39,868 nt of DNA from the IMG/VR virus record IMGVR_UViG_3300035698_005727, positions 1 through 39,868 of that record. The stretch is one strand, 5' to 3'. Of this stretch, positions 21,430 to 39,163 are shown one piece after another; position 1 is the first letter of the stretch, and the number at the start of each line of letters is the position of its first letter. A model generated the notes under the pieces. The model worked only from the letters and a program-made list of their open reading frames with translations. It was not told the origin of the DNA and searched no databases. Source of the DNA: a virus. Made by a program: the position numbers and the translations under genes.

Positions 21430-21832
21430 AAAAGAACATATATCATTAAAGGATTACTTTATGGGTAGGGATAAGTTATATCCTGTGTCTAAAGAACTAG
21501 TCTCAAATGCGGAAGACCTACTGTTAAAAGTAAATGATTTGATTACAAAGTTCCATATTCCCTATAGAGGCATTAGCAGTGGGTATAGACCTCCTATCAT
21601 AAATGCGCGAATTGGTGGAAGTCGAAAAAGTGCCCATATCACCTGCCAAGCTGTTGATCTGAAGGATACAAAGGATCAGTATATAGGCAAGTTACTTAAA
21701 TCTAACCCACAGTTCTTGAGGGAGTTCGGCCTATATCTAGAGCATCCAGATTATACACAAGCTTATAATGGAGCTCATTGGGTACATCTACAAATTCGAC
21801 CTACTAGAAATAGAGTTTTTATACCTTACTAA
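21338..21832 (+). CDS. Endolysin, M15-type (VanY/L-alanyl-D-glutamate) peptidase
   Basis: Up to 164 residues. The catalytic domain opens with ISLKDYFMGRDKLYP (about 35-49), contains SSGYRPPIINARIGGS, and holds the zinc site His100 and Asp107 in SAHITCQAVDL plus His150 in HWVHLQI. It ends RNRVFIPY. All three ligands are present, so it should cleave peptide cross-links of peptidoglycan. The domain lacks an ATG just before ISLKDY; the ATGs at 21338 and 21356 add a basic N-terminal extension overlapping the holin-like gene, and ATG 21461 would cut into the domain. No secretion signal is evident. The stop overlaps the convergent gene by three bases. Confidence 0.85.
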   Translation: MWLVQLMSRLLSGFFSATKLKGQSKPKKTSKKEHISLKDYFMGRDKLYPVSKELVSNAEDLLLKVNDLITKFHIPYRGISSGYRPPIINARIGGSRKSAHITCQAVDLKDTKDQYIGKLLKSNPQFLREFGLYLEHPDYTQAYNGAHWVHLQIRPTRNRVFIPY

Positions 21833-22398
21833 ATAAGGATATCATCCCATTCACTAAAGTCGGAATCCGACTCTAATAATAGCTGAACATCATTAGGTAG
21901 TACTTTTCCGTTCTTCAGCGTCCACAAGTAATTATCTGTTTCTGCATCATAAACTAGATATATAACCTCTGTATTGCCTCTGTAAGTCATAGATTTAGAA
22001 GCTACTTTAACAGTGGATGATACGTCCAATGTCTTCAGATCCTGTTTACGTAAGAACTTAACAAGATTTTTCTTAGATTCGTAAATGAATAATGAGCACG
22101 CCATATTGTCTTTAAAGTTATATGTTTTGGAAATGGCCGAAATTGGTGAGAGGTCGATTAGATAGGCTGTCATGACTTCTTTAAGTCGGCCTTTAGGATA
22201 TTTGTGTAATGCGTCTAATAGTAGTTGACCCTTCTCTACCTTATCTGTTGGAGGTTCGATCAGCCTTGTACTGCCTTTGTGTTGTTTTTGTCTAGGATTA
22301 AACATTTCGGCCTTTTTGAATTGATTATCCATTTCTGGATTATCCTTGTAAAACTTGTTAATTTCTTTCTTCTGTTTTTTAGTTAATCTTTTTTTCAT
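21829..22398 (-). CDS. Hypothetical basic protein, last gene of the leftward operon
   Basis: About 189 residues from the ATG at 22398, chosen over an ATG 36 bases upstream because it has AAGGA six bases before it. The Lys-rich N terminus (MKKRLTKKQKKEINKFYKD) is followed by a polar linker and a folded C-terminal half, with an acidic end (SDSDFSEWDDILI). No family recognised. The basic start suggests nucleic-acid or membrane contact. It is convergent with the endolysin, and a perfect 6-bp stem, AGTCGG-AAT-CCGACT at 21858-21872, lies within its 3' end. Confidence 0.55.
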   Translation of the reverse strand: MKKRLTKKQKKEINKFYKDNPEMDNQFKKAEMFNPRQKQHKGSTRLIEPPTDKVEKGQLLLDALHKYPKGRLKEVMTAYLIDLSPISAISKTYNFKDNMACSLFIYESKKNLVKFLRKQDLKTLDVSSTVKVASKSMTYRGNTEVIYLVYDAETDNYLWTLKNGKVLPNDVQLLLESDSDFSEWDDILI

Positions 22399-22423
22399 CT
22401 GCTTCCTTGCAGGGTACTTCCTA

Positions 22424-22702
22424 TTATCTAGCAAGTCCTAATAACAATCCTCCTGTTAATGCGCCTATTACAAATACTAATGTAGGGTTCTTCTTGTACC
22501 AGACATCATTATGATTACGTTCTGCTTCTATAAGCAAATCTTGTTTTTGAATTACTTCGTCTAAATCGGCTATTAACGCCTTTTGCGTATCTACCAGTAT
22601 CTTGCATGCCTGTACTGCCAGATCACATTTCTCCGCTTTACTCGCTACTGTCGTCGTGCTTATTGTAAGCATCAATAGCATCGTTATAATTATCTTCAGC
22701 AT
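22424..22702 (-). CDS. Exported coiled-coil protein with C-terminal membrane helix
   Basis: 92 residues. A clear signal peptide (about 1-22; KIIITMLLMLTISTTTVASKA) is followed by a Cys-containing helix (EKCDLAVQACKIL) with heptads to about residue 65, then a C-terminal membrane segment (about 73-90; TLVFVIGALTGGLLLGLA). This plan is common among small phage envelope proteins near spanin genes. Such a protein could bridge periplasm and inner membrane during lysis. The N-terminal 65 bases overlap the 3' end of the next upstream gene in another frame, a nested arrangement typical of Rz/Rz1-type pairs. Confidence 0.6.
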   Translation of the reverse strand: MLKIIITMLLMLTISTTTVASKAEKCDLAVQACKILVDTQKALIADLDEVIQKQDLLIEAERNHNDVWYKKNPTLVFVIGALTGGLLLGLAR

Positions 22703-22892
22703 CTTTTAAATCCTCTCTTTTAAACTTGGCTACTAATTCTTTCGCCCTTTTCAAATCGTCATCTAATTCATTAACTCTAGCTCCGCTTAACAGTGAGATT
22801 ATCCTAGAGATTAGGTATAATGCCAATGTTCCTAAACTTCCGAAAACGAGTAATTTATTAAGATCCACGGCATACCACCCTATAAGCCCCAT
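22638..22892 (-). CDS. Rz-like inner-membrane spanin candidate
   Basis: 84 residues: an N-terminal membrane anchor (about 10-35; LNKLLVFGSLGTLALYLIS) followed by a charged coiled coil (about 40-75; DDDLKRAKELVAKF, DAEDNYNDAIDAYN). This is the topology of inner-membrane spanin subunits. It overlaps the downstream exported protein by 65 bases and the upstream lipoprotein by 35. With that lipoprotein it could form an i-/o-spanin pair that fuses inner and outer membranes. Sequence alone cannot confirm this. Confidence 0.5.
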   Translation of the reverse strand: MGLIGWYAVDLNKLLVFGSLGTLALYLISRIISLLSGARVNELDDDLKRAKELVAKFKREDLKDAEDNYNDAIDAYNKHDDSSE

Positions 22893-23058
22893 CCCCAGTC
22901 TTAGTCATGGTCTTAAGGCAAGAGTTATATCGCGACTTGCATACATATGCGGCCCTCTTTAACGCTTCTATATCCCTAATCTCAAGAGGTTTGTCGAAGT
23001 TTATTAGTGTGGGTGCTGAACATCCTACAGCTATATAGGTAAATATTGAGAGTATCAT
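22858..23058 (-). CDS. Small lipoprotein, possible outer-membrane spanin
   Basis: 66 residues. A short signal with lipobox AVGC (Cys13) implies a mature lipoprotein of 54 residues. The mature part contains three further cysteines (YVCKSRYNSC; RVVC). Start codon ATG overlaps the protease stop as ATGA. Very short lipoproteins adjacent to an anchored coiled-coil protein are the usual o-spanin arrangement, but the cysteine-rich C terminus is also seen in other small phage lipoproteins. Confidence 0.55.
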   Translation of the reverse strand: MILSIFTYIAVGCSAPTLINFDKPLEIRDIEALKRAAYVCKSRYNSCLKTMTKTGDGAYRVVCRGS

Positions 23059-23768
23059 TTCAGTGACCTAAGTACTTTACGTAAGTCATGCACTGCTATA
23101 AAGTAACTTTTATTTGTAGTAGTAGACTTAGCAACAGCTACTCCTACAACGTCTCCTGAAGTATTCATTACAGGTCCACCACTATTTCCAGGATGTATTT
23201 CAGTATCCATCTCATATGAGTTTATAAGCTGTATACATATTACACCGAAGTAAGTCTGTCTAGGGAATTGGTTAACCCCATAACACTCATCAGATACAGC
23301 ATATCCAGCAGATAATGCAATAATGTTACGTCTTATGATATGTCCACGACTCTTAAAAAAGGAATAGTCTAGGGCGAATCCATTAGAAGTAACCTCGTCA
23401 TATATCTTAAAAGAGTCTGCCAGGTCTAATGTTTCTTCATTCTCGTCTGCTTCCAAGATACAAATATCCATATGAGGGACTTCGACTAAAATTAAGTGTA
23501 CTCCATGGGCAGTGAATAATTGCTGATTTCCCTTACATACATGAGCTGCCGTTACTAGATACTTTGTGTCATTGTGTTCCACAAAAAAGCCAGTTCCGTG
23601 ACCACCGTTAGGTATAGATACCTTTAATATGGCAGGGTTCTTATCTTCATTAACTCTAATATCCCTTAGTGATAATCTGTTATCTAGTTTTCTTAACAGA
23701 AGTAGGGATAGAATAACTACTCCGCCTAAGATACTAATTTTCTTAATTAATTTATTCATCATTCTCAT
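23055..23768 (-). CDS. Membrane-anchored trypsin-like serine protease (S1 fold)
   Basis: 237 residues. An N-terminal uncleaved signal anchor (about 9-26; KKISILGGVVILSLLLLRK) leads to a chymotrypsin-fold protease with the complete triad: His76 in VTAAHVC, Asp101 in PHMDICIL and Ser196 in PGNSGGPV. The substrate-side pattern GTGFFV (59-63) is also typical of trypsin-like/DegP-type catalytic domains; no PDZ domain follows. The active site should face the periplasm. It overlaps ClpP-like and lipoprotein genes by ATGA junctions, so it is co-expressed with them. Its target is unknown: host envelope protein, superinfection barrier or phage lysis proteins are all possible. Confidence 0.85.
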   Translation of the reverse strand: MRMMNKLIKKISILGGVVILSLLLLRKLDNRLSLRDIRVNEDKNPAILKVSIPNGGHGTGFFVEHNDTKYLVTAAHVCKGNQQLFTAHGVHLILVEVPHMDICILEADENEETLDLADSFKIYDEVTSNGFALDYSFFKSRGHIIRRNIIALSAGYAVSDECYGVNQFPRQTYFGVICIQLINSYEMDTEIHPGNSGGPVMNTSGDVVGVAVAKSTTTNKSYFIAVHDLRKVLRSLK

Positions 23769-24334
23769 CCTTCTTCAATCTCATCGGCTAATCCAAGTTT
23801 CATTACTTGTTCAGCTACTAATATTGTATCGTGCTTTAGCATTTCAATCAACTTCTTTTTTGCATATTTAGGGTTTTTCTGTTTTATCCTATCTAAATAC
23901 AACTTCTCTGTCCTAGGTTTCTCTACGCTTTTATCATGGTCTGACCAGTTATGTACTGATGTCGTATCGCCCTGTATAAAGTTACTTCCATAATGTATCA
24001 TAAACGTACAGTTTTTGGTGATAACTCTCGAATCAGCTGCTTGTAGGATAATAGTGGCCATGCTCATACAGCTCCCTGTAGCTCTAACAGTGATGTGACA
24101 GAGTGATTTCTGTATGCGGTCATAGATGTCCCATCCGTCAGCTACATACCCCCCTTCACTGTTAAGCGTAATTACTATAGGCGCCCTAGAGCGTTGCTCC
24201 AGAGCACTTAGTCCGCACCATAGGGAATCGGCCATACTATTATCTACAGTACCACTAAGGCGAATCTCCCTTGTTTCTAAGTTAACATACTCATTAAATA
24301 GTATGCTCATGTCTGTTTCGTTCTTCTTACTCAT
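23765..24334 (-). CDS. ClpP-like serine protease (S14 family)
   Basis: 189 residues. The ClpP fold is shown by IRLSGTVDNSMAD, VITLNSEGGYVADGW and the catalytic motif GSCMSMA with nucleophile Ser91, then His114 in CTFMIHYGS. Asp169 in LKHDT is the likely third residue, followed by VMKLGLADEI. It is cytoplasmic, with no signal. In many phages a ClpP-like enzyme matures the capsid and sits next to the portal. Here it is on the opposite strand among replication and envelope genes, and no other prohead protease is seen near the capsid gene. It could be the displaced maturation protease or act on host proteins. ATGA overlaps on both sides. Confidence 0.85.
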   Translation of the reverse strand: MSKKNETDMSILFNEYVNLETREIRLSGTVDNSMADSLWCGLSALEQRSRAPIVITLNSEGGYVADGWDIYDRIQKSLCHITVRATGSCMSMATIILQAADSRVITKNCTFMIHYGSNFIQGDTTSVHNWSDHDKSVEKPRTEKLYLDRIKQKNPKYAKKKLIEMLKHDTILVAEQVMKLGLADEIEEG

Positions 24335-25110
24335 TTAATCTTCTTCCCCTTAAACAATTGGCCACAATCCTTACACTTATGTAATTGAACTGGTCCTGCC
24401 TTAGTTCCTGCTGTTCCCTGTTTAATTATCCTAACGGACGTACATGTGGGGCATTTAGTTCCGTCATTCTTCTTACCTGTAACCTTTAGCAGATTTGGGT
24501 GATTTTGGATGTAAGGTAATAACTTAAAGTAGAGTCCAGCTCCACTCTTAATGTCACCTTTATTATAGTCTACAAGATGTTTTAGTGACTTCCTACAACC
24601 GTTATCAGCCTTATGCATAACTCCGCTAGGTAGGTCGATCTTCAACGTAACGCCGAATTCCTTAGCCAAATGTCTAAGTGAATTGGATGACGATTTCATA
24701 AACTTTCTAGCTGCCTTTAACGTATCCACTGTTGGGGGTAACATTATAGGTGCTAAGCCATGTTTAACAAAGCGGTAGTTAAGTTTCTTAATATCAAATG
24801 AATCAGAGTTATGTCCAACGATTAGGTCAGCTTCGCTCATTATCTCATGCATCTTCTTAACAACGCCTCTATCGTCTCTGAAGTCTTTCTTATAGGTAGG
24901 GAAGTCAGCTACCGAAACAACTTCTACTTTCCCTATCTTCTTCTTTTTATTGTCTAGCCACGCCCAAGCACAGCAAGTTACGTACCAGTCATGTTTTATG
25001 TTTGAGGGGCTAATGCGATTGTTATCATATAGGCTATAGCTTTGAAACTCTATAACCATACGACTATTCTCAATATCTAGGTATAATATTTTAGGGTGTT
25101 TATTTTTCAT
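24331..25110 (-). CDS. DnaQ-like 3'-5' exonuclease with C-terminal zinc ribbon
   Basis: 259 residues. DEDD-type nuclease motifs are complete: Asp12/Glu14 in YLDIEN, Asp106 in GHNSDSFDIKKL and Tyr182-x3-Asp186 in DYNKGDI. A C-terminal zinc ribbon has two Cys pairs (CPTC at 220-223, CKDC at 246-249). It degrades DNA or RNA from 3' ends. The ribbon probably supplies nucleic-acid binding. The polymerase has its own proofreading domain, so this is a separate repair, recombination or host-degradation enzyme. A GGGGAGATAAGAG site precedes ATG, and the end overlaps the ClpP-like gene by ATGA. Confidence 0.8.
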   Translation of the reverse strand: MKNKHPKILYLDIENSRMVIEFQSYSLYDNNRISPSNIKHDWYVTCCAWAWLDNKKKKIGKVEVVSVADFPTYKKDFRDDRGVVKKMHEIMSEADLIVGHNSDSFDIKKLNYRFVKHGLAPIMLPPTVDTLKAARKFMKSSSNSLRHLAKEFGVTLKIDLPSGVMHKADNGCRKSLKHLVDYNKGDIKSGAGLYFKLLPYIQNHPNLLKVTGKKNDGTKCPTCTSVRIIKQGTAGTKAGPVQLHKCKDCGQLFKGKKIK

Positions 25111-25113
25111 CTC

Positions 25114-25231
25114 TTATCTCCCCACAATATTATTATAGGCGTGTATCTCTGCCCAAGTTAATTTGTCGTGCTCTTCTTTGGTGATTAGTTTTCCATTGTA
25201 CCAAAATTTAATTTCTTTTTTATTGTCTCAT
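25114..25231 (-). pseudogene. Small gene broken by a +1 frameshift right after its start
   Basis: The ATG at 25231 has a good ribosome site (TTAAGGGAATAAGT) but stops after MRQ. The frame one base on is open for 37 codons with convincing protein sequence (DNKKEIKFWYNGKLITKEE, then HDKLTWAEIHAYNN) up to TAA at 25114, and it has no start codon of its own. Removing one base between ATG and GACAAT restores a 38-residue gene. It may be a real lesion, a sequencing error, or frameshifting at the start codon. It fills the gap between the exonuclease and the 87-residue gene. Confidence 0.55.
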
Positions 25232-25233
25232 AC

Positions 25234-25497
25234 TTATTCCCTTAAGTTACTTAGTAACATTTCATCTAATAGCATCAATACAGACTCTTCTAATTCGGCG
25301 ATTTCATAATCGTGTCTCAAATACTTTTTAAGGGGATTAACTACTTTTATATGTTGAATTGAGTGTTTAGGAAAGAGTCCCAATAATCCACTTATATGTA
25401 CAGGAGTACACATAGGAAAAAACGTATAATCTGCCTCAGACTCTACAGCTGCTTCGTAGATCTCTATTAAAATATCGTTTCTTGTTGTATGTTCCAC
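25234..25497 (-). CDS. Hypothetical protein in the replication operon
   Basis: 87 residues, mixed alpha/beta, with two cysteines and an acidic C-terminal helix (IAELEESVLMLLDEMLLSN). No recognised family. An AGGAAGAGGAAAT site precedes ATG. It is located between the dNTP diphosphohydrolase-like gene and the frameshifted small gene. Confidence 0.55.
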   Translation of the reverse strand: MEHTTRNDILIEIYEAAVESEADYTFFPMCTPVHISGLLGLFPKHSIQHIKVVNPLKKYLRHDYEIAELEESVLMLLDEMLLSNLRE

Positions 25498-25523
25498 TAT
25501 AATTTCCTCTTCCTTATATTATA

Positions 25524-25868
25524 TCACACATCTGCTATAAAGTCAAACGTACCGAACTTCTTCTCTAAATACGTAATCATGTTAACACATGCTGCTACAT
25601 GATCCATATGATCTAATCCCGACTCTTTGTCTATTCTGCTTCCGGATGTGATGGCGGAATAGTGGCGGTCAAGGGCTGCGTAAACACGGGGTAAATCGGC
25701 CTTTGTCATCTCTTTAAACCCATTACGACTGTACTTCTTACAACCATAACCTAATCCTCTAGCAGTGGCTTCTTTAAGGGATACGTCTACAAGTGATAGG
25801 TCAGGCTTTCCTGAGTCCTTCTTAAGTTTCTGATCCATCTCATGCTGCATTAATTCATCTACTGTCAT
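25524..25868 (-). CDS. dATP/dGTP diphosphohydrolase-like protein (DUF5664 type)
   Basis: 114 residues with the conserved pattern of this small family: KDSGKPDLSLVD (about 17-28), GYGCKKYSRNGF (about 40-51), AALDRHYSAITSG and DKESGLDHMDHVAACVNMI (about 80-98), containing the acidic/His residues expected for metal binding. Such enzymes hydrolyse purine deoxynucleoside triphosphates or act in phage nucleotide control. Here it may shape the dNTP pool for replication, but no modified-base synthesis gene is visible nearby. Start ATG overlaps the RuvC-like stop (ATGA). Confidence 0.65.
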   Translation of the reverse strand: MTVDELMQHEMDQKLKKDSGKPDLSLVDVSLKEATARGLGYGCKKYSRNGFKEMTKADLPRVYAALDRHYSAITSGSRIDKESGLDHMDHVAACVNMITYLEKKFGTFDFIADV

Positions 25869-26398
25869 GTGAATTTCCTTCCATATTTACGTGTTTGTGG
25901 CTTTCGGCCTTCTTCACAATAGGCGATTCCTATTGCATCGATTTCATCCCATAATCCTTCTTGTATCAGTATACGTATACTTTCTGCACTGTTTGGTATC
26001 AGTTTAAGTAGACCTTGTCCCATCTCCTCTTTGTTTGCTTTTGAGTTTCCGGTGATTGACTTTTTTAGTACTATATTATGTACCTCAATGATCTCGATCT
26101 TAAAGGGTATAGTACATAGTATTGCTCCTATAGCTCTCTGAAGCGTCTCTCCGCCTTTCCCTCTCATAACAAACCATTCTGAATGAACTTGTAACGAGTC
26201 CTCTCCATACTGCTGTACGAGGTCTAGGACGATATCATTCACCTGTTCAGCTAAACACTTAATTCTATGTATAGCAGGCTTGTTAACGCTAGGCCATAAA
26301 GCTTTGGTCCAGATAACTTCTTCACTGAAATTGTCATAGAGGGCAAGCCCTAACGGTGATGAGCTCCCTGATCCAGGATCAATCCCTAAGATTATCAT
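25865..26398 (-). CDS. RuvC-like Holliday junction resolvase
   Basis: 177 residues with an RNase H fold: ILGIDPGSGSSSPLGLALYD at the N terminus (Asp7), Glu74 in VHSEWFVM, a long helix with GGETLQRAIGAIL, and the C-terminal acidic pair Asp151 and Asp154 in WDEIDAIGIAYC. All four RuvC-type metal ligands are accounted for. It should cut four-way or branched DNA before packaging. ATGA overlaps join it to genes on both sides. Confidence 0.8.
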   Translation of the reverse strand: MIILGIDPGSGSSSPLGLALYDNFSEEVIWTKALWPSVNKPAIHRIKCLAEQVNDIVLDLVQQYGEDSLQVHSEWFVMRGKGGETLQRAIGAILCTIPFKIEIIEVHNIVLKKSITGNSKANKEEMGQGLLKLIPNSAESIRILIQEGLWDEIDAIGIAYCEEGRKPQTRKYGRKFT

Positions 26399-26661
26399 GC
26401 CGCATGATGCTCCATATAACTATCAAGTAGATCTACAATATCAACCTCTGTTAAGCGTAGCCAAAGAAGTGACTCTATAACAAGATTGCTATATTCATCT
26501 TCTATGTCGAGTGTGCAATAGATGTCCATAGAATGTAGGCTAGAGAGACAGTCTAAGTTATGCATCTCTTGATCATAGTTCTTTATGATATCCTCTTCTA
26601 TATCAAATCCATCATTAGCCTCCGTGAACAACCATTTTAATTTTTCCATTAACCATTTCAT
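26395..26661 (-). CDS. Hypothetical acidic protein next to DNA polymerase
   Basis: 88 residues, strongly acidic (IEEDIIKNYDQEMHNLD; EVDIVDLLDSYMEHH), predicted helical. It follows the polymerase stop by one base and overlaps the RuvC-like start by ATGA. No family recognised. Acidic helical proteins here can be DNA mimics or polymerase partners, but there is no direct evidence. Confidence 0.55.
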   Translation of the reverse strand: MKWLMEKLKWLFTEANDGFDIEEDIIKNYDQEMHNLDCLSSLHSMDIYCTLDIEDEYSNLVIESLLWLRLTEVDIVDLLDSYMEHHAA

Positions 26662-26662
26662 A

Positions 26663-29296
26663 TTATTTACAACTCCAATTCTTTCCGGTCCCTACTTCAA
26701 ATTTAATAGGGATCCTAAACTCATTTGTTTCCATAGCAGTCTTTAACTTCTTAGCAAACGTTTCGGCCTCTTCTTCTTTTACTTCCCAAATTGACTCATC
26801 ATGCACTAGCATTAATAGTTCAGCTTGTGGGTTATTCTTAACGATTTCCATTGTCCGAAATAACATATAGTCAGATGCGGAGCTCTGTATAAGACTGTTG
26901 ACGCCCTTCATATAGATTTCATTTTGCTTAACGTCTACACGTCTTCCACTCATATTAGTGATATATCCGACTTTATCTAACTTTCTATGTACCTGCTTAG
27001 ATAGACTTAATAGTCCTGGAAACTTTGTGAAGTATAACTTAATTACTTGTTTAACTTCAGAGTGACTAAGTTCAATACCGGCCTGTTGTTTAATAAAGAA
27101 ACGTAATTTGTTCGGCCCTACCCCATAAAGGATAGATAGTCCTACTACTTTAGCCATACTTCTTAATTCAGGAAACTTCTCTTTTACTTCATTTGGGGTA
27201 CATTTAGCACCTAATGTTTCACATGCAATAGTGCCATAAAAGTCCACATCATTATTAAACGTTTCGATAAGCTTTTCATCTTTACTATAATGAGCTGCTA
27301 ATCTAGGTTCAATCTGTGCCAGATCTCCTACAACTAACTTGTATCCTTCTTTAGCAGTGAAGAGGGATCGTACTTCTGGCTTCCGATCTATCTGTTGCAT
27401 ATTGGGACCAGAGCAATTATGTACATTTATCTCAGAAGCAATAAAGTTAGGATTGTCTTCTATAGTTAAATCGTATACTTGTTTTAGTCCTACATCTTTA
27501 GTATTTACTACCATATGATTGTAGCATAGTTCATGTACCTTACAGAACTCATTTAGTTTTCTGGTTCCCCAGCCTAGTTCAGTAGCTGCATCTCCTAATC
27601 TACTGTTTTTATGTAATGAAGTAAGGACTTTGTTTATGTTTATATATTCGTTTTTTGTATTGTATCTGAACTTGGATATGTAAGTAAGGTCTATATCTGC
27701 TTCGTCACATTTGTCTTTAAATGCCTTAAAGTCCATATCTACTTTAGTGGGATTGCCCTTAGCTTTTGCTATCATTCTAAGTAAATCCGTTTTACTCTTT
27801 AGTATAGTTCCTGAGCCTATAAAAGGAAGTAAATGCTTAGGTATAATTCCTTTGGGGGGTCTATATCCCTTATTAAGTAGATGGTTATGTCTCTTAGCAT
27901 GTTCACTAGCAGTAAGTACCTCTAAATTCTTAATATCGTTGTTATCCTTAGATCCATCAATATGATGTATATGTAATTTTGATGGGGCTTTAAATATATC
28001 CTTTTTTATAAGCTGCTCCTCAGTAAGCTGTTGTTTGTTAGTTCCATAGATACGAATTCTGCCGTTTTTTAACTTAGATCGTCTTGCATGTACTAATTTA
28101 TCGTATCTTTTTAAGGAGTCGGCTCTTACCCACCCTAAGTATTTATGGTTTATTTGGTGGTCCGGGGTACATATTAAAGTCCCTATTCTGCCGTCACCAC
28201 TCGATTGATGTTTGATTTCTATGCATTCCTGCACACCATTATTGATAACATTCAATACTTTTTTAATAGATAGTGTATTATCCTCATTATAACAATGCAC
28301 CAAATCCCCTACCCGAATGTCTTTGATAGGCTTCTCTCCTAGGTTAGTCATTACCAATTGATTTTCCTCGATACAACTTAAACGACCTGTTCTTACATTA
28401 GTGCAGTTAAAGCGACCATGGATCCTTCCATCAGACTTAACGTCACTGAGATACCCTTCTAATGATTTAGCCCTTTTCTTAGCCTTACGCATCACCAGTA
28501 GATCATCCACTAAAGGACTTTTGCCTATAGAGAGATTTAATGTAGCTACATCAGCTGATTCTTTCTTAGTTGTTGGGTTGGTATAGTCGAGTCCTAGATG
28601 TTTTAGACACCATAGGATCTGCTTACTACTGTTAAAGTTAAACATTTTAGCGTTATTAATGCGTTTATAGTCAGATATTAGTTCAGAATGTTCAATTTTC
28701 ATTCTACTAACAAGATCATTAACACGCTCTTTATCCGAATCCATAAGAGTTTTGCATGCTTTAGTGTCTAAGGTAATTCCTCTCCATTCACAATCAGTAA
28801 GCATTCGTCTAGCAGACATAAGTTTAGGGAAGAAGCTGTATCTCTCTTGTTTTTTTAACTGTTCAAGTAACTCATTTGCTACATCTAATGTATAACGACA
28901 ATCGTCTAAACAGTATTCTTTCATTATCTCGGGATCTTTATAGGCGTCACCACTTTTAAAATCTTCCTTCCAACTAGGGAATCCTAAATAATGCCCAACT
29001 AATGCTTCAAGACTAAGTCGTTTAGGAGCTCCTCGAAGTAGATAAGCTGCTACCATAGTATCGAAATCATTATCTACATTGTTATAACCAGCTTCCCATA
29101 GAAACTTTACATCGAAACTGCCATTATGAAATACTAATGTATATCCATCTTTTTTTAACTGATCGAATTTGTCTTGAAGGTCTTTTCCTAATGAGTCGTC
29201 TACATAGTAGCTTTCGTCACTAAAACCGACACATATAATTGTATCGGTTTTGTAACATAAGCCTGTAGTCTCAATATCACAAGCTATAAGTTTCAT
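26663..29296 (-). CDS. Family A DNA polymerase with 3'-5' exonuclease, interrupted by an intein
   Basis: An 877-residue precursor; the spliced polymerase is 557 residues. The exonuclease domain has Asp7/Glu9 (CDIETTG), Asp62 (FHNGSFDVKFL) and Tyr128-x3-Asp132. The polymerase domain has motif A at Asp658 (VGDLAQIEPR), motif B RSMAKVVGLSILYG (712-725) and motif C LVHDES at 830-835 (Asp833). The conserved TGRLS...PNMQQ sequence before motif A is split by an intein (residues 308-627) between Ser307 and Cys628. There is no 5'-nuclease domain. This is the replicative enzyme, heading a run of replication genes after the lipoprotein pseudogene. Activity depends on splicing. Confidence 0.95.
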   Translation of the reverse strand: MKLIACDIETTGLCYKTDTIICVGFSDESYYVDDSLGKDLQDKFDQLKKDGYTLVFHNGSFDVKFLWEAGYNNVDNDFDTMVAAYLLRGAPKRLSLEALVGHYLGFPSWKEDFKSGDAYKDPEIMKEYCLDDCRYTLDVANELLEQLKKQERYSFFPKLMSARRMLTDCEWRGITLDTKACKTLMDSDKERVNDLVSRMKIEHSELISDYKRINNAKMFNFNSSKQILWCLKHLGLDYTNPTTKKESADVATLNLSIGKSPLVDDLLVMRKAKKRAKSLEGYLSDVKSDGRIHGRFNCTNVRTGRLSCIEENQLVMTNLGEKPIKDIRVGDLVHCYNEDNTLSIKKVLNVINNGVQECIEIKHQSSGDGRIGTLICTPDHQINHKYLGWVRADSLKRYDKLVHARRSKLKNGRIRIYGTNKQQLTEEQLIKKDIFKAPSKLHIHHIDGSKDNNDIKNLEVLTASEHAKRHNHLLNKGYRPPKGIIPKHLLPFIGSGTILKSKTDLLRMIAKAKGNPTKVDMDFKAFKDKCDEADIDLTYISKFRYNTKNEYININKVLTSLHKNSRLGDAATELGWGTRKLNEFCKVHELCYNHMVVNTKDVGLKQVYDLTIEDNPNFIASEINVHNCSGPNMQQIDRKPEVRSLFTAKEGYKLVVGDLAQIEPRLAAHYSKDEKLIETFNNDVDFYGTIACETLGAKCTPNEVKEKFPELRSMAKVVGLSILYGVGPNKLRFFIKQQAGIELSHSEVKQVIKLYFTKFPGLLSLSKQVHRKLDKVGYITNMSGRRVDVKQNEIYMKGVNSLIQSSASDYMLFRTMEIVKNNPQAELLMLVHDESIWEVKEEEAETFAKKLKTAMETNEFRIPIKFEVGTGKNWSCK
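27416..28375 (-). other. Intein with HNH homing endonuclease in DNA polymerase
   Basis: 320 residues from Cys1 (precursor Cys308, CIEENQLVMTNLGEKPI) to the terminal His626-Asn627 before Cys628. Splicing blocks are intact: TPDHQ with His380, GWVRADSL, VYDLTIEDNPNF and VHN at the end. The middle carries an HNH nuclease (HIHHID with His445, DIKNLEV with Asn457, SEHAKRH with His466) and a helix-turn-helix-like stretch (about 560-585). It should self-splice and home into intein-free polymerase alleles. Confidence 0.92.
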
Positions 29297-29297
29297 A

Positions 29298-29789
29298 TTA
29301 GTCTAACCTAATTGTAGGACCTTTAGTATTCATCCTCTGCTCAACAACACAAAGATCTTCGTACTGTCCTTGAATCGTAAATTGTCTAACATATGTATTT
29401 GTTATATATAAACAAACTTCGTTAGGATTTGCGTTTCCTTCAGCGTCTGATAAATCATTACAAAGAACTCGCTTACTATGGCTACACGAACTGTTAAGGT
29501 AAATGTCAGCATGATCTCCTTCATTCTCTATCCATACGCCGCCACCAATACTTACGCATTTTCCTTTTGTGGGTATTAAGTAAACTTGTACTTCACTTCC
29601 GTTTCCAGTCATTCCTTTAGGACCTTGGGGACCTACTGCTCCTTGAGGGCCTTGAGCACCTACTGGTCCTTGAATTCATGAAGTGCCATCAACACCATAT
29701 CTAACCGATTCTCTAACTCGATTGTCACAAGCTCCTAGTAATACTAATGTTCCTAAAATTAAAATTGAGTTAAGTATTGTCTTTTTCAT
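29298..29789 (-). pseudogene. Collagen-like lipoprotein interrupted by in-frame TGA
   Basis: From ATG 29789 (AGGAG eight bases upstream) it encodes a lipoprotein signal with lipobox LLGAC (Cys21), then collagen-type Gly-X-Y triplets (GVD GTS, then after codon 38 GPV GAQ GPQ GAV GPQ GPK GMT). A beta-rich C-terminal domain with six cysteines follows, about 163 codons in all. Codon 38 (29676-29678) is TGA, exactly where a triplet needs Gly (GGA in neighbours). TGA is a normal stop elsewhere, so this is probably a GGA-to-TGA nonsense change, a read error or a read-through site. A 104-residue fragment from ATG 29612 could still be made but would lack the signal. It has its own consensus promoter. 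Confidence 0.75.
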
Positions 29790-29809
29790 ATCATTTTCTC
29801 CTATTACTG

Positions 29810-29839
29810 ATTATACCACGACAGTAAAGGTTGTGTCAA
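29810..29839 (-). promoter_or_regulatory. Sigma70-type promoter for the lipoprotein-polymerase operon
   Basis: Leftward TTGACA (29834-29839), an 18-base spacer and TATAAT (29810-29815), both perfect consensus. The expected start is about 13 bases before ATG 29789, leaving room for the AGGAG ribosome site. Confidence 0.85.
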
Positions 29840-29841
29840 AC

Positions 29842-29881
29842 AAAAAGGCCGAAATGAGACCTATTTGTCCCACCTCGGCCT
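29842..29881 (-). terminator. Rho-independent terminator of the nuclease/SSB operon
   Basis: On the leftward strand, AGGCCGA and TCGGCCT form a 7-bp stem, extended inside by GGGAC/GTCTC, followed by TTTTTG. It is 23 bases after the stop of the 101-residue gene and directly before the next promoter. Confidence 0.8.
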
Positions 29882-29903
29882 ACAACAAAGCTTACATACC
29901 GTC

Positions 29904-30209
29904 CTAGCTGTCTGATTCGTTCTTATCTACTTTACCGCTTCCTTGTAATTCCTTTTCTCCGAAAGCCATTAACATAAAATTTAAATGAATTATCTCTATC
30001 AGTGTTCGTACTAAATGATGTTCTTCTAATGATTTACTTGTAGCGTCTTTAGGATTAGATATTGCGAACATGCAGATATTCTGTATAACCCTTTGAAGTG
30101 CGTTTTTAGACATCGTAGAACTGAGACGACGCGCTAACGCCGTCTCAGTTGCTAATTCTTTAGATACATCTTCTATAGATAAATCGTGTTCCTCTAGCTT
30201 AAAACTCAT
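29904..30209 (-). CDS. Hypothetical helical protein, end of the SSB transcript
   Basis: 101 residues, predicted as a bundle of helices (LEEHDLSIEDVSKELATE; LQRVIQNICMFAIS; LVRTLIEIIHLNFMLM) with a disordered charged tail. No family recognised. It overlaps the SSB-like gene by 11 bases and is followed by a terminator. Confidence 0.55.
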   Translation of the reverse strand: MSFKLEEHDLSIEDVSKELATETALARRLSSTMSKNALQRVIQNICMFAISNPKDATSKSLEEHHLVRTLIEIIHLNFMLMAFGEKELQGSGKVDKNESDS

Positions 30210-30606
30210 CGCTAGATACTACCGACGCTCCTCCGCCACTGCCAGAATTATTTTCAAATACTTTACGTGGAGTAGACTCGTCTACCTTTAACTCATAGAA
30301 GCTCTTAACCTTACCTTTATATCCGCTCTCCGCAGGTACTTTAGTAATTTTAACTCTAGCTCCAGTTAGGTCTTTTCCGTCTTTAACTAAATCTTCTGCT
30401 AAGTATTTCAATCTACCGCTAGCATAAATTAAAGTTTCAGTTCCGTCTTCACCAACGATAATTGGATGACATTTAGTCTCGTTATCGAATGGGCTGTTAG
30501 GTAAGTTGATGAATGTCTTTAAGAATCCTGTGATACTCCATCCTTCAGCTACCTTTGAAAATGTTACTGGGTCTTTTCTGTTTTCTTCGTTATTATTATT
30601 GTTCAT
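30199..30606 (-). CDS. Single-stranded DNA-binding-like protein
   Basis: 135 residues. A beta-rich core that could form an OB fold (about 18-112; VAEGWSITGFLKTFI, IIVGEDGTETLIYASG, ARVKITKVPA) is followed by a flexible Asn/Ser/Gly linker and the short acidic tip SSDEF. This body-linker-acidic-tip plan is typical of SSB proteins, whose tip recruits partners. The poly-Asn start (NNNNNEEN) is unusual. An AGGAG site precedes the ATG. It lies downstream of a PD-(D/E)XK nuclease and upstream of the polymerase, in keeping with replication or recombination. Identification is by architecture only. Confidence 0.55.
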   Translation of the reverse strand: MNNNNNEENRKDPVTFSKVAEGWSITGFLKTFINLPNSPFDNETKCHPIIVGEDGTETLIYASGRLKYLAEDLVKDGKDLTGARVKITKVPAESGYKGKVKSFYELKVDESTPRKVFENNSGSGGGASVVSSDEF

Positions 30607-30682
30607 TTTTATATTCTCCTATTAATTCTCTTGTTATTTCTAATTTATCTAGAACTTTTCTTATAATCTCTGTAGAGCTCAT
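30596..30682 (-). CDS. Possible 28-residue ORF overlapping the SSB-like start
   Basis: Encodes a charged amphipathic helix (EIIRKVLDKLEITRELIGE). It lies between the 30774-30802 promoter and the SSB-like gene and overlaps its start by 11 bases, so it may be a leader or a genuine small protein. No strong ribosome site. Confidence 0.35.
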   Translation of the reverse strand: MSSTEIIRKVLDKLEITRELIGEYKNEQ

Positions 30683-30693
30683 CTTTACGTGTA

Positions 30694-30753
30694 CTACTCA
30701 AATCGCATCAAAGATTCTAAGATTACTTCTGTTTGTCTTTCTTGTTTTTTCAT
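30694..30753 (-). CDS. Possible 19-residue ORF, first on the SSB transcript
   Basis: It starts 20 bases after a perfect -10 box with a very strong ribosome site (AAGGAAGG), and encodes MKKQERQTEVILESLMRFE. The initiation signals are better than those of many larger genes here. It may be a leader peptide or the truncated start of a gene. Confidence 0.4.
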   Translation of the reverse strand: MKKQERQTEVILESLMRFE

Positions 30754-30773
30754 AATTTCCTTCCTTATTTACT

Positions 30774-30802
30774 ATTATACCTCAAGTTATCCTAAGTGTC
30801 AA
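30774..30802 (-). promoter_or_regulatory. Sigma70-type promoter for the SSB-like operon
   Basis: Leftward TTGACA (30797-30802), a 17-base spacer and TATAAT (30774-30779), all perfect consensus. It lies immediately after the stop of the nuclease gene, so SSB-like and the 101-residue gene can be expressed apart from the nuclease. Confidence 0.85.
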
Positions 30803-30806
30803 CTAT

Positions 30807-31751
30807 TTATACATTTGTCCAGCCATCTTTTCCTGTTATTTTTAATTTAAGTCCTGTTTTCATAAGCTTAATCACGGCCTTTTTATGTCCTATCTTGAAA
30901 TTCTTATTGCCGTGCCTTAATACTAGGTACTTTAACAGTTCTTTTTTATCTTCTGGTACATCTAAGGGGTCTAAAACTACCGTTTCGGAAGGTTCGAGAA
31001 GAAACTCTTTATTATCGTGGTCTCTAAAATCACTGTAAGTAGCTTGCCAGTCAGCTCCATACACATACTCTCTACTAGGAACTTCGCCTTTTTCATACGC
31101 TTCATAAATCTCCTGAAATCTATCTAGCACTGCTAATGCTAATTCTTCGTTATAACTGAATTCACAAATCCTCATAGCGGAATCATTTTTACAATAGTAC
31201 CACACTAAAGCCCTTGTAATGTTTCTACTTTTCGCCCAATCCGAATGTAAATACAGATTAATTTGTGCTATATGTTCTTCTTTAGGTAGAGCGCCTTTAA
31301 AAGGATACATACTACTACTTTTACTATCACATAACAGTAGTTCGCCTCCGACGTTAAGTGTGAAGTCAAATTCCCCTTTTAAAGGTATCTGTTTATTATC
31401 TTTAGTACGAATGAAACCATACTCAACACGCTGATTTGAATCAGGAATTGGGAAAACATCCTTAATAAATCCTGTTAGGTGGTCCTCAATATCATGTCCT
31501 AGTTGAAGCAGCATTGCTACACGTCCATCGAAGTGCGTTTTTGGTATTTTATTAGGTTCGTAATAGTTTACAAGTCCGTAATATAAATCACGTTTTGCTT
31601 TAAGTGCCGAAGACGGTCTAAGTGGAAATGACTGTCGCCTATCAGTTTCTTTTAGACTTTTATTAAGTGCCGAATCCTGCACTGCTTGTACGATCTCTTT
31701 ATGAGCTTCGCCCTCTTCCGTTTCGATTTCAATTCCTAATATAGTTTTCAT
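30807..31751 (-). CDS. PD-(D/E)XK nuclease, RecB/Cas4-like
   Basis: 314 residues. Nuclease core motifs: GHDIEDHL (Glu89), GEFDFTL (Asp129), LLLCDSKSSS with Asp142-x-Lys144, then HIAQINLYLH (Gln163, Tyr167), the order found in RecB-type and Cas4-like exonucleases. The four-cysteine iron-sulphur cluster of true Cas4 is absent, and no CRISPR genes are present, so a phage recombination/replication exonuclease is the better call. Pairing with the SSB-like gene resembles an exonuclease/annealing set. The ATG sits 7 bases after a -10 box, so the message is probably leaderless. Confidence 0.8.
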   Translation of the reverse strand: MKTILGIEIETEEGEAHKEIVQAVQDSALNKSLKETDRRQSFPLRPSSALKAKRDLYYGLVNYYEPNKIPKTHFDGRVAMLLQLGHDIEDHLTGFIKDVFPIPDSNQRVEYGFIRTKDNKQIPLKGEFDFTLNVGGELLLCDSKSSSMYPFKGALPKEEHIAQINLYLHSDWAKSRNITRALVWYYCKNDSAMRICEFSYNEELALAVLDRFQEIYEAYEKGEVPSREYVYGADWQATYSDFRDHDNKEFLLEPSETVVLDPLDVPEDKKELLKYLVLRHGNKNFKIGHKKAVIKLMKTGLKLKITGKDGWTNV

Positions 31752-31753
31752 AC

Positions 31754-31782
31754 TTTACATTATATCCTATTTCTGTTACAAT
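31754..31782 (+). promoter_or_regulatory. Rightward promoter of the primase-helicase operon
   Basis: TTTACA (31754-31759), 17-base spacer, TACAAT (31777-31782), then six bases to ATG 31789. The predicted start coincides with the A of ATG, so no ribosome site can be transcribed. It overlaps the divergent leftward promoter almost completely. Confidence 0.75.
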
Positions 31783-31787
31783 GTAAA
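31759..31787 (-). promoter_or_regulatory. Leftward promoter of the nuclease gene, interlocked with the rightward one
   Basis: Read leftward: TTTACA (31782-31787), 17-base spacer, TATAAT (31759-31764), seven bases to ATG 31751. Both promoters lie within a perfect inverted repeat, TTTACATT (31754-31761) and AATGTAAA (31780-31787), so each -35 box touches the other's -10 box. The two cannot be occupied at once. Confidence 0.8.
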
Positions 31788-31788
31788 C

Positions 31789-31998
31789 ATGGAAAATAGA
31801 AAAGACGTCTTAGACGCAATCAGAACTCTAATCCTGCTAACTAGAATAAATGCTGTAACTAAAGCAGGTTACGAACATATGTATGATACACTTACCAGTG
31901 AAGAATTACAGGCCCTTAGAGAAGAAATTAATAATCGTGAAGTGCGCGATTTAGAAATTACACCTAAAATTTTAATGGAGGTTATCAGTGAAGGTTAG
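31789..31998 (+). CDS. Hypothetical small helical protein ahead of primase-helicase
   Basis: 69 residues, helical and charged (DAIRTLILLTRINAVTKAG; TSEELQALREEINNREV). No recognised domain; a small regulator or helicase-loading partner is conceivable. It is predicted to be leaderless. The end overlaps the primase-helicase GTG start by 11 bases. Confidence 0.55.
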   Translation: MENRKDVLDAIRTLILLTRINAVTKAGYEHMYDTLTSEELQALREEINNREVRDLEITPKILMEVISEG

Positions 31999-33922
31999 TA
32001 AGTCTAAAGGATTAAAGGTATTTGAGCCTGAATTTGTTGGGAGTTTAGAGGCTTTAGGTATATTTGTATGTACTTACGACTGGTCACCTTATTTATTTAA
32101 GGATAATCAGAGGAGTAGTGTAAATTTCTTAAGTGGTCAGGTTTTTGCACTTGATGTAGATGACGGTATGTCATTAATAGAAGCGGAAGCGATTATCGAG
32201 TCTATGAATGTTTCGGCCATTTTAGCTACAACTAAGAGTCATGGTATCAAGCCTGAAGATCGATTTCGTATAGTTTTTCCTATTGAAGGAACTCTTAGAA
32301 GTAAAGAAGAAATTCGTAATATGTTTTTCTACTTACAAGAAAAGTTCCCAGCCATCGATGCTTCATGTAAAGATGCTGCTCGTTTCTTTTATAAATGTAA
32401 AGAAGTCTATAAGATCATTAAGAAGGAAGAGTTTTTAAAGATACCTAAAACAGTGAAGAGTGGGGAAGTTGAAGTACGAAATTCTATTTCACCTGTAACT
32501 ACTAAATACCCACTGTCGAAGAAGACGATCGAATTTATACAGAACGGAGCGCCGTCTGGAGATCGTTACGAGCCTACTAAAGCTATGATCTATGATGCTA
32601 AACAACAAGGCTGGTCGTTAGATAACCTGTTTGAGTTTATCGAGGAAGAAGGCAAAGCATTTTTACTGTCAGAGGAATATAGAGTTAAAATTAAACAGCA
32701 TTATGATGTGTTCGAACCTCAGTATCCTCCTAGAATCTTACAGCAGCATCCGGGAAAACTTTCTGTTATGTCTGGTAAGGTAGGACTAGATTATTTTAAA
32801 ATGTATCTAAATAGCAATGAAGTTTCAGCCTCTTATGACAGGAGATTATCTATTAATGGTGGAGAGCTACTATCTATACCTGAATTTCTACGTGATTTTA
32901 GAATTAATTGTGCAGAAAAACATATCCGTGTAGCAGGTAATCACGAAGATTATTTAGATCAGTGGGTAGATAAGAGGCGTGAATTATATCGGGAGGATAC
33001 AGTTGACAAGTTATGTAAATATAATGAGGACGGAATTAAAGAACTAGAAAAGTTTGTAGGGGTATTTAAAAAAGATTATTTGCCAGTGGATATCGAAATG
33101 TTCAGGCACCAATTGTGGCAAATAAAGCGTAAAATGACCGGTATGGAAACCATTTACGAGACTATGATGGTATTTACAGGTGGTCAAGGGGCAGGTAAGT
33201 CGTGGGCTTTAGGTAAGTATTTACTTAAACCTCTCAGCGAGTTAGCCTCTACCAGTGAAGATTTCTCTATTATTAACGATTCTAGAGAAGCTCGTAAATT
33301 AAACAATCATTTTGCTATTGTGTTTGATGAAATGACAGGGGCTGATAAGTCTGATATGCAAAAGATCAAAAAAATTATCAGTCAACAAGACGCTATTAGG
33401 CTTCGTGTTATGGGAACTAATGAACATTTACTTCTTCCGATGAACGCGACTTTTTTCGGCACTTCAAATTTCGATTTAAAGTCTGTTATCAAGGATAATA
33501 CTGGTATGCGCCGATTTTGGGAAATTCCCGTAGACAATAAGAAGGAAGTTATTAAGCGTCGAGAACTGCTACAGAAGCTTGACTACACGCTTTTATGGCA
33601 CTGTGTGGATCATTTAGCAGATTCGCCCTATTTGGCAGTACAGGATGAGGCTGAGGCTGTTCAGGAGACCTTGAGACATAAAGATCCGGTAGAGTCGTTT
33701 TTTGATGAGCAGCTTGAATTAACTGATAATCCTATGGAATTCACATATTCTAAGGAACTTCTGGAAAATTTCAACGATTGGTATGGAATGAGGAGCTACA
33801 CATCTCAAGCTTTCGGCCTTTATATGGGTCGGATAAAAGACGTTTTGAAGGAAAAAGACAGAAAAGGGGCGAAGTATAATGTCCGCCTGATCAATCCATC
33901 CGCCAATTTTGATGATATTTAA
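31988..33922 (+). CDS. Primase-helicase (AEP-type primase plus SF3/VapE-like helicase)
   Basis: 644 residues from GTG 31988, preceded by GGAGG six bases upstream. The N-terminal part resembles an archaeo-eukaryotic primase core: ALDVDDG (54-60), RFRIVFP (92-98) and DASCKDAARFFY (124-135). The C-terminal helicase has Walker A GGQGAGKS (398-405), Walker B IVFDE (Asp447-Glu448), a sensor GTSN (Asn494) and GMRRFWEIP with arginine-finger candidates Arg508/509, as in D5/VapE-type SF3 helicases. Together it would unwind and prime DNA for the family A polymerase. A strong terminator follows, and the candidate origin lies just downstream. Confidence 0.85.
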   Translation: MKVSKSKGLKVFEPEFVGSLEALGIFVCTYDWSPYLFKDNQRSSVNFLSGQVFALDVDDGMSLIEAEAIIESMNVSAILATTKSHGIKPEDRFRIVFPIEGTLRSKEEIRNMFFYLQEKFPAIDASCKDAARFFYKCKEVYKIIKKEEFLKIPKTVKSGEVEVRNSISPVTTKYPLSKKTIEFIQNGAPSGDRYEPTKAMIYDAKQQGWSLDNLFEFIEEEGKAFLLSEEYRVKIKQHYDVFEPQYPPRILQQHPGKLSVMSGKVGLDYFKMYLNSNEVSASYDRRLSINGGELLSIPEFLRDFRINCAEKHIRVAGNHEDYLDQWVDKRRELYREDTVDKLCKYNEDGIKELEKFVGVFKKDYLPVDIEMFRHQLWQIKRKMTGMETIYETMMVFTGGQGAGKSWALGKYLLKPLSELASTSEDFSIINDSREARKLNNHFAIVFDEMTGADKSDMQKIKKIISQQDAIRLRVMGTNEHLLLPMNATFFGTSNFDLKSVIKDNTGMRRFWEIPVDNKKEVIKRRELLQKLDYTLLWHCVDHLADSPYLAVQDEAEAVQETLRHKDPVESFFDEQLELTDNPMEFTYSKELLENFNDWYGMRSYTSQAFGLYMGRIKDVLKEKDRKGAKYNVRLINPSANFDDI

Positions 33923-34211: not shown

Positions 34212-34239
34212 CTTGACATTTTACCTGAATCTGATATAA
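34195..34239 (+). CDS. Possible 14-codon leader ORF
   Basis: ATG 34195 has a very good ribosome site (AAAAGGAG, 7 bases upstream), and the ORF runs through the AGTCGTCACA repeat and the 34213 promoter to TAA. Translation would need a message started further upstream. It may be a leader peptide or chance. Confidence 0.25.
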   Translation: MSQSSHLTFYLNLI

Positions 34240-34240
34240 T
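34213..34240 (+). promoter_or_regulatory. Sigma70-type promoter for the early gene block, leaderless
   Basis: TTGACA (34213-34218), 16-base spacer, TATAAT (34235-34240), then only five bases to ATG 34246. The start site should fall at or next to the ATG. The AGTCGTCACA repeat ends two bases before the -35 box. Confidence 0.8.
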
Positions 34241-34245
34241 AAGGC

Positions 34246-34524
34246 ATGGTAAAAACTATAGTAGTAAACTATGTCGATAAGGCTTCCGTTCTTAACTGTA
34301 CTGTTATGGATACGTTGGATTTACAGATTTTCAAGTACGAGGCCGTAAAAGGCTCTGAGAGACATGCGCTCGCACTTAGGGGTCATCTTGTATCGAAAGG
34401 CTTTGAGACGAAGGAAGAGGCCGAAATGAGGCTTAGAGAGCTTCTAGAGGGTATCATCGAAAATGATAACGTCGTGTTAGAGCTCGATGCATACGAGCTA
34501 GAGGAGCTTACAAGTGTTAAATAG
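34246..34524 (+). CDS. Hypothetical early protein, first gene after the early promoter
   Basis: 92 residues: beta-rich N-terminal half (KTIVVNYVDKASVLNCTVMD), then an acidic helical C terminus (EEAEMRLRELLEGIIEND; ELDAYELEELTSVK). No family recognised. The first gene behind a strong early promoter often acts on the host or on transcription, but nothing in this sequence shows which. The message appears leaderless. Confidence 0.6.
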   Translation: MVKTIVVNYVDKASVLNCTVMDTLDLQIFKYEAVKGSERHALALRGHLVSKGFETKEEAEMRLRELLEGIIENDNVVLELDAYELEELTSVK

Positions 34525-35770: not shown

Positions 35771-35980
35771 ATGATATATAAAGTATATAGATCAAAAGAG
35801 GAACTTTCATATTTAAAAGCCGCCTTCCCAAAGCTGAAGTGGTCAGCACTAAAGGGATATAAGTATGACGGAGGAATAGGATTATTCAGTACGTACTCCG
35901 GAGCACTTGCTGATTCAATGGGTCTATGGGAAGATTATTGTGAATTTAACAGAAACTTAATTAGCAATGATACAAAATAG
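35771..35980 (+). CDS. Hypothetical small early protein
   Basis: 69 residues, aromatic-rich (YKVYRSKEELSYLKAAFPKL; SALKGYKYDGGIGLFSTYSG). It has an AAAGGAG site. No recognised family. The stop lies 14 bases before the lipoprotein gene. Confidence 0.5.
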   Translation: MIYKVYRSKEELSYLKAAFPKLKWSALKGYKYDGGIGLFSTYSGALADSMGLWEDYCEFNRNLISNDTK

Positions 35981-35982
35981 GA

Positions 35983-35988
35983 TATAAT
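35983..35988 (+). promoter_or_regulatory. Perfect -10 box six bases before the lipoprotein gene
   Basis: TATAAT with six bases to ATG 35995, the same spacing as the leaderless starts elsewhere. No good -35 box is seen 16-18 bases upstream, and AGGA at 35979-35982 could instead serve as a distant ribosome site. Confidence 0.35.
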
Positions 35989-37210: not shown

Positions 37211-37804
37211 ATGAATAATAAATACGAAATTAACAGTGAAGGTAGGGTAGTAGCCCTTAAAAATTTTGGTAATATTAAGAGCGGTCATGTAGGGGGATTT
37301 GTAGATGGATATCACAACCTATCCCAAGAAGGTAACTGTTGGGTAACTAGAAATGCTCGTATAACTGGAAATGCTGAGGTATCTGGAAATGCTTGTGTAT
37401 CTGGAAATACTGTTTTATCTGAAAATACTCGGATATCTGGAAATGCTTCTGTATCTGGAAATGCTCTTTTATCTGGAAATACTTGTGTAACTGGAAATGT
37501 TTATATATCTGGAAATGTTCGTGTATCTGGAAATGCTCAGGTAGATGGAAATGCCCGCATATCTGGAAATGTTCAGGTATATGCAGAATGTACAAGAGAT
37601 CCTTTATATATACATAATATACCTCTTTACCAATACCGCATAACACTTACAGATTATCATATTACAATAGGCTGTATAACTATGCTTTATACAGAGTGGT
37701 TAGAGGTAGATAGAGAAGATGCGGAGTTGATGGGGTTACGTGGTAAATACTACGACAATGTTAAATCTCTGTTAACAACCCTAATTCCCCAATATTACAC
37801 TTGA
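37211..37804 (+). CDS. Left-handed beta-helix (hexapeptide-repeat) early protein
   Basis: 197 residues from ATG 37211 (AAAGGAA upstream). A cap (about 15-46; GGFVDGYHNLSQEGNCWV) precedes 13 six-residue repeats with consensus N-A-x-V-S-G (residues 48-125), which fold as a left-handed beta-helix or beta-roll. A non-repeat C-terminal domain follows (IPLYQYRITLTDYHITIG; REDAELMGLRGKYYDNV). Similar cap-plus-repeat proteins are known from many phages, usually of unknown function. It is not next to tail genes, so a fibre role is unlikely. The stop is 31 bases before the next gene. Confidence 0.75.
   Translation: MNNKYEINSEGRVVALKNFGNIKSGHVGGFVDGYHNLSQEGNCWVTRNARITGNAEVSGNACVSGNTVLSENTRISGNASVSGNALLSGNTCVTGNVYISGNVRVSGNAQVDGNARISGNVQVYAECTRDPLYIHNIPLYQYRITLTDYHITIGCITMLYTEWLEVDREDAELMGLRGKYYDNVKSLLTTLIPQYYT
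37352..37585 (+). repeat. Tandem 18-bp repeats encoding the beta-helix
   Basis: Thirteen 18-base units of the type AATGCTxxxGTATCTGGA. The near-identical DNA of several units suggests recent expansion and a tendency to change copy number. Confidence 0.85.
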
Positions 37805-37835
37805 CGCACATAACCTAATAGGAGATAATAAGACT

Positions 37836-39134: not shown

Positions 39135-39163
39135 TTGACAGATATAAGGTAAGGTGTTATAAT
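39135..39163 (+). promoter_or_regulatory. Consensus sigma70-type promoter, leaderless, before 39171
   Basis: TTGACA (39135-39140), 17-base spacer, TATAAT (39158-39163), all perfect; seven bases then ATG 39171. It likely drives 39171 through the junction toward the packaging genes. Confidence 0.9.

Follow-up and report, generated by a model that had tools for sequence, protein, structure and literature searches.

The window analysed here is the whole of IMG/VR record IMGVR_UViG_3300035698_005727 (39,868 nt), a complete virus record whose two ends carry an identical 127-bp terminal repeat. It holds a phage genome of ~39.7 kb and 38% GC with tailed-phage genes, namely TerL, portal, PolA with an intein, RuvC-like, DnaQ-like exonuclease, and VapE-like; no tRNA or Rfam RNA was found in the window. 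According to the list of open reading frames (ORFs), a run of genes at 21829–31751 is read leftward and the remainder is read rightward via the circular join, and the genome has a sole divergent gene junction, the 37-bp gap at 31752–31788. The cumulative GC skew has turning points at 21632 and 31841, beside the two junctions (one convergent, one divergent). Elsewhere, the motif AGGCTAT(ATA) is repeated just upstream of late-gene starts (window positions 395, 2742, 2970, 5147, and 16935, + strand).

To the left of the gap lies a Cas4/RecB-like nuclease gene (30807–31751, − strand), residues 10–244 of which match positions 14–240 of the PHROG 1706 profile (E 6.9e-14). Its ATG is the first in-frame start; we rejected a downstream start for this gene because the family match runs from residue 10 and no further in-frame start occurs before a GTG at codon 24. 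To the right is a 69-aa ORF (31789–31998, + strand) with codon-position GC of 0.49/0.30/0.26, like that of coding genes. This ORF matches no family at E ≤ 0.001 in Pfam or PHROGs, its predicted fold is unusable (pLDDT 57), and a weak match to an anti-sigma factor (E 0.059) is not one that we believe. It is overlapped by a VapE-like primase/helicase gene (31988–33922, + strand; PF05272, E 2e-17) that has a GTG start and a GGAGG Shine–Dalgarno sequence. The leftward arm contains promoters of its own: a 12/12 match to consensus, TTGACA-17-TATAAT (30802–30774, − strand), sits between the nuclease gene and a gene proposed to encode SSB, upstream of the latter and 20 nt from the start of a small ORF that has a Shine–Dalgarno sequence, and further promoters begin at 29839, 25546, and 25161 (all − strand). 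The SSB name itself, taken from the original prediction, found no Pfam or PHROGs match to support it. Two other features of this arm deserve mention. The DNA polymerase A gene (26663–29296, − strand) contains an intein with an HNH domain at about residues 314–627 (Pfam Intein_splicing and HNH_3), and at 29298–29789 (− strand) a 37-aa lipoprotein-like ORF (LGAC) ends in a TGA, after which the same frame continues into collagen-like Gly-X-Y repeats. The TGA occupies an expected glycine position; as the phage uses TGA as a stop codon elsewhere, the gene is probably broken here or the sequence in error.

Read directly, the gap contains two interlocked divergent promoters, as had been predicted. 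The rightward promoter (31754–31782, + strand; 10/12) consists of TTTACA at 31754–31759, a 17-bp spacer, and TACAAT at 31777–31782, with a TG at the extended −10 position; its −10 box is followed by GTAAAC and then by the ATG at 31789, leaving 6 nt between them. The leftward promoter (31759–31787, − strand; 11/12) consists of TTTACA at 31787–31782, a 17-bp spacer, and TATAAT at 31764–31759, followed by GTAAAGT and the ATG at 31751–31749, with 7 nt between. Both −35 boxes match consensus at 5/6 positions, and the −10 boxes at 6/6 (leftward) and 5/6 (rightward). The two promoters overlap by 24 bp (31759–31782), and the last base of each −35 box is common to the −10 box of the opposite promoter. 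Both are of the sigma-70 type, with two near-consensus hexamers and a spacer within 16–18 bp, although this assignment assumes the sigma consensus of the host, and a leaderless reading assumes that the host tolerates leaderless mRNAs.

Such an arrangement is rarely produced by chance. When the 37-bp sequence was shuffled 300,000 times, two promoters of at least 10/12 with −10 boxes 5–8 nt from both ends arose once. The window has two opposed, overlapping pairs of at least 10/12, whereas its dinucleotide shuffles averaged 0.035. The second of these promoter-like pairs (22793–22826) has the same one-base interlock and lies inside a gene (22638–22892). In a comparison covering 1.68 Mb, a promoter of at least 9/12 located 5–8 nt before both ATGs was present in 1 of 233 divergent ATG-initiated ORF pairs, that of the gap under study; these pairs (both ORFs at least 60 aa, gap of 28–47 bp) are mechanical ORFs rather than curated genes.

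The short distance between each −10 box and its ATG recurs elsewhere in the phage. Promoters of at least 10/12 that lie just before phage genes fall into two classes, one 5–7 nt from the start (n = 6) and the other 20–21 nt from it (n = 4). In the latter, which comprises the leftward promoters beginning at 30802, 29839, 25546, and 25161, a Shine–Dalgarno-like stretch lies between promoter and start. The former precedes ATG codons in every case: the two of the gap (31751, −; 31789, +) and four on the + strand, at 34246 (TTGACA-16-TATAAT at 34213–34240, 5 nt before the ATG), 35995 (TTAGCA-16-TATAAT at 35961–35988, 6 nt), 37836 (TTGACG-17-GATAAT at 37801–37829, 6 nt; ambiguous, given a TAGGAG 11 nt upstream of the start), and 39171 (TTGACA-17-TATAAT at 39135–39163, 7 nt). 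At the observed promoter density and with 55 starts, ~0.05 such cases would be expected by a Poisson estimate that takes promoters to be uniformly placed. TA-like signals ~12 bp before the start have been interpreted as markers of leaderless genes in bacteria (PMC3160421), and in the gap the first T of the −10 box lies 12 and 13 nt from the respective ATG. The prediction that both genes are leaderless is thus well supported by inference, with transcripts of the nuclease gene and the 69-aa ORF expected to start on the A of the ATG or at most one base from it; on the right-hand side this rests on the ATG and the codon pattern, since the 69-aa ORF has no homologue.

The two classes also differ in direction (5:1 rightward for the leaderless class against 0:4 for the leadered class; Fisher two-sided 0.048), although the sample is small and was looked at post hoc. 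One may speculate that the leaderless class, made up of the genes at the gap and rightward early genes, and the leadered Shine–Dalgarno class respond differently to a shift in ribosomes or initiation factors during infection. Translation would then alter the balance of the arms, and at transcription they would be coupled by the interlocked promoter; we regard this idea as a long shot.

The original prediction also noted a perfect inverted repeat in the gap, which is indeed present (TTTACATT at 31754–31761 and AATGTAAA at 31780–31787), and suggested that it could bind a regulator. At a length of 11 bp, the arms are TTTACATTATA (31754–31764) and TACAATGTAAA (31777–31787), with 10/11 bases paired. 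The left arm comprises the rightward −35 box and the reverse of the leftward −10 box, and the right arm comprises the rightward −10 box and the reverse of the leftward −35 box; two interlocked near-consensus promoters necessarily look palindromic. Because the arms are made up solely of promoter hexamers, we ruled out the palindrome as independent evidence of an operator. An operator for a dimeric phage or host regulator spanning both promoters would account for the perfect 8-bp arms, and viral sites of like geometry (L107, L115, and L117) have palindromes that reach inward, with 8/12 inner positions symmetric. In the gap, however, the symmetry stops at the hexamers: 4 of the 12 positions between the 11-bp arms are symmetric, about the level expected by chance. 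Moreover, the repeat occurs nowhere else in the genome when up to one mismatch is allowed, and none of ten early proteins scanned has a DNA-binding regulator domain past the Pfam cut-off. We therefore consider it unlikely that a regulator binds here.

Our preferred interpretation, which we consider probable, is that the gap is a bidirectional, doubly leaderless promoter hub for the housekeeping sigma factor (sigma-70), placed at the sole divergent junction. Host RNA polymerase would bind the same 24 bp in one of two orientations and initiate on the A of either ATG or no more than one base away, yielding leaderless mRNAs; the left transcript would lead into the nuclease arm and the right transcript into the 69-aa ORF and the primase-helicase arm, and alternation between orientations may balance the two. 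Another possibility is that one promoter is real and its mirror copy fortuitous, the other arm being transcribed from a different site or with a leader. The weaker rightward −10 box, the lack of a homologue for the 69-aa ORF, and the GGAGG of the primase gene would all fit, but the 17-bp spacers and phage-typical placement of the start codon are found on both sides, and the nuclease gene contains no other + strand promoter of at least 10/12 from which the right arm could be read. This explanation appears very improbable.

If the gap is a hub, the relationship between its arms must be considered. Because of the 24-bp overlap, polymerases should be unable to sit on both promoters together, and to this extent the mutual exclusion originally proposed is upheld; it would apply to a single binding event, however, and does not make the arms themselves exclusive. 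The basal activity of five bidirectional promoters tested in Escherichia coli was too low for them to compete. Competition was seen only after transcription in one direction had been boosted or activated, and strengthening one −35 box of a bidirectional promoter greatly cut the opposite transcript (PMC12825309). Given the near-consensus boxes of the gap, some competition between its promoters is plausible. A stronger version would be a competitive switch, in which the promoters are so strong that activating or repressing one strongly lowers the other and expression of the two arms is separated in time. The match of the −35 and −10 boxes to consensus and the effect of an improved −35 box in E. 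coli are compatible with this, but we detected no regulator gene among the early proteins, both arms carry replication genes, which should be needed together, and the left arm has internal promoters, including the 12/12 promoter, in addition to that of the gap. A switch, as the gap had been described, is consequently doubtful, and a shared, alternating supply of polymerase is more likely.

Comparison with known systems helps to place this arrangement. Bidirectional promoters of E. coli and Salmonella (Warman et al.; PMC12825309, PMC10268837) consist of pseudo-symmetric DNA that RNA polymerase occupies in two exclusive orientations to produce divergent RNAs, as proposed here. They are defined by a shared −10 element and divergent starts at a distance of 7–25 bp, most commonly 18 (PMC10268837), whereas the predicted starts of the gap are 37–38 bp apart, its −10 boxes are separate, and each −35 box abuts the opposite −10 box. 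On start spacing the gap falls outside this definition, yet it would be expected to work like a bidirectional promoter. Cluster O mycobacteriophages (Corndogvirus) have divergent promoters, PL1 and PR2, that are both predicted to be leaderless (PMC4351075). As the first annotated left and right genes lie ~490–500 bp apart in the records of Firecracker, Dylan, and Catdawg, these promoters are separate rather than interlocked. The A2c and A3 promoters of phi29 are also read in opposite directions. They belong to an early-late region in which two phage promoters are regulated together (PMC11476376). No such regulator or spacing is seen in the gap. In lambda, PRM and PR are divergent phage promoters, one of which produces a leaderless mRNA (cI), and they operate with operators and repressors in the lysogeny decision; we recognised no repressor or integrase among the genes scanned in the present phage. 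Regulated divergent switches feature a regulator and its sites between the promoters, and we saw neither a regulator match among the early proteins nor a repeated operator, though a regulator of an unfamiliar kind may act here. The gap is a compact variant that unites the exclusivity of bidirectional promoters with the double leaderless placement of cluster O.

If start-site mapping confirms this interpretation, two divergent genes would be launched very compactly, from 37 bp without leaders and with 24 bp in common, by a hub placed where transcription of the genome diverges. The gap would lend itself naturally to studies of how two near-consensus promoters compete for RNA polymerase, and it suggests that leaderless genes form a distinct class in this phage.

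We found no phage with the same junction in comparisons based on the nuclease, primase, terminase, exonuclease, portal, and polymerase, and no near-identical phage DNA. Scans of viral contigs for the nuclease, primase, and terminase returned one match (nuclease, 25%; L001), genome contigs held no primase or exonuclease relatives, and a 114-aa polymerase fragment recovered distant contigs only. Relatives of the exonuclease, L018 (60%) and L098 (51–65%), are without the junction; our searches found neither flanking gene (nuclease or primase) in them, nor the 5–7 nt promoter class. Nuclease and primase/helicase genes lie on one and the same strand in Shocker and Casserole, which are portal relatives. 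In L098 (9050–10621), the exonuclease gene is split by ~0.8 kb near residue 101 (GHN|SD), possibly by an intein or intron.

The interlock itself is more widespread. The pattern TTKACATTRTA-N12-TAYAATGTMAA was present in 16 stretches of viral contigs, compared with none for the same letters with 20-bp spacers, although this is a single control pattern and an operator that prefers a particular helical phasing could also account for the difference. By our reading of the sequences, the 16 stretches represent about 11 independent lineages, and their occurrence, when the pattern with a non-functional spacer is absent, suggests a solution reached more than once. These sites are mostly outside long open frames and have a longer leader where a flanking start is close; none of the 16 is leaderless on both sides. 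One contig, L107, contains two interlocked symmetric sites (3172–3205 and 4841–4874) whose palindromes extend inward, and these look like operator-bearing divergent promoters.
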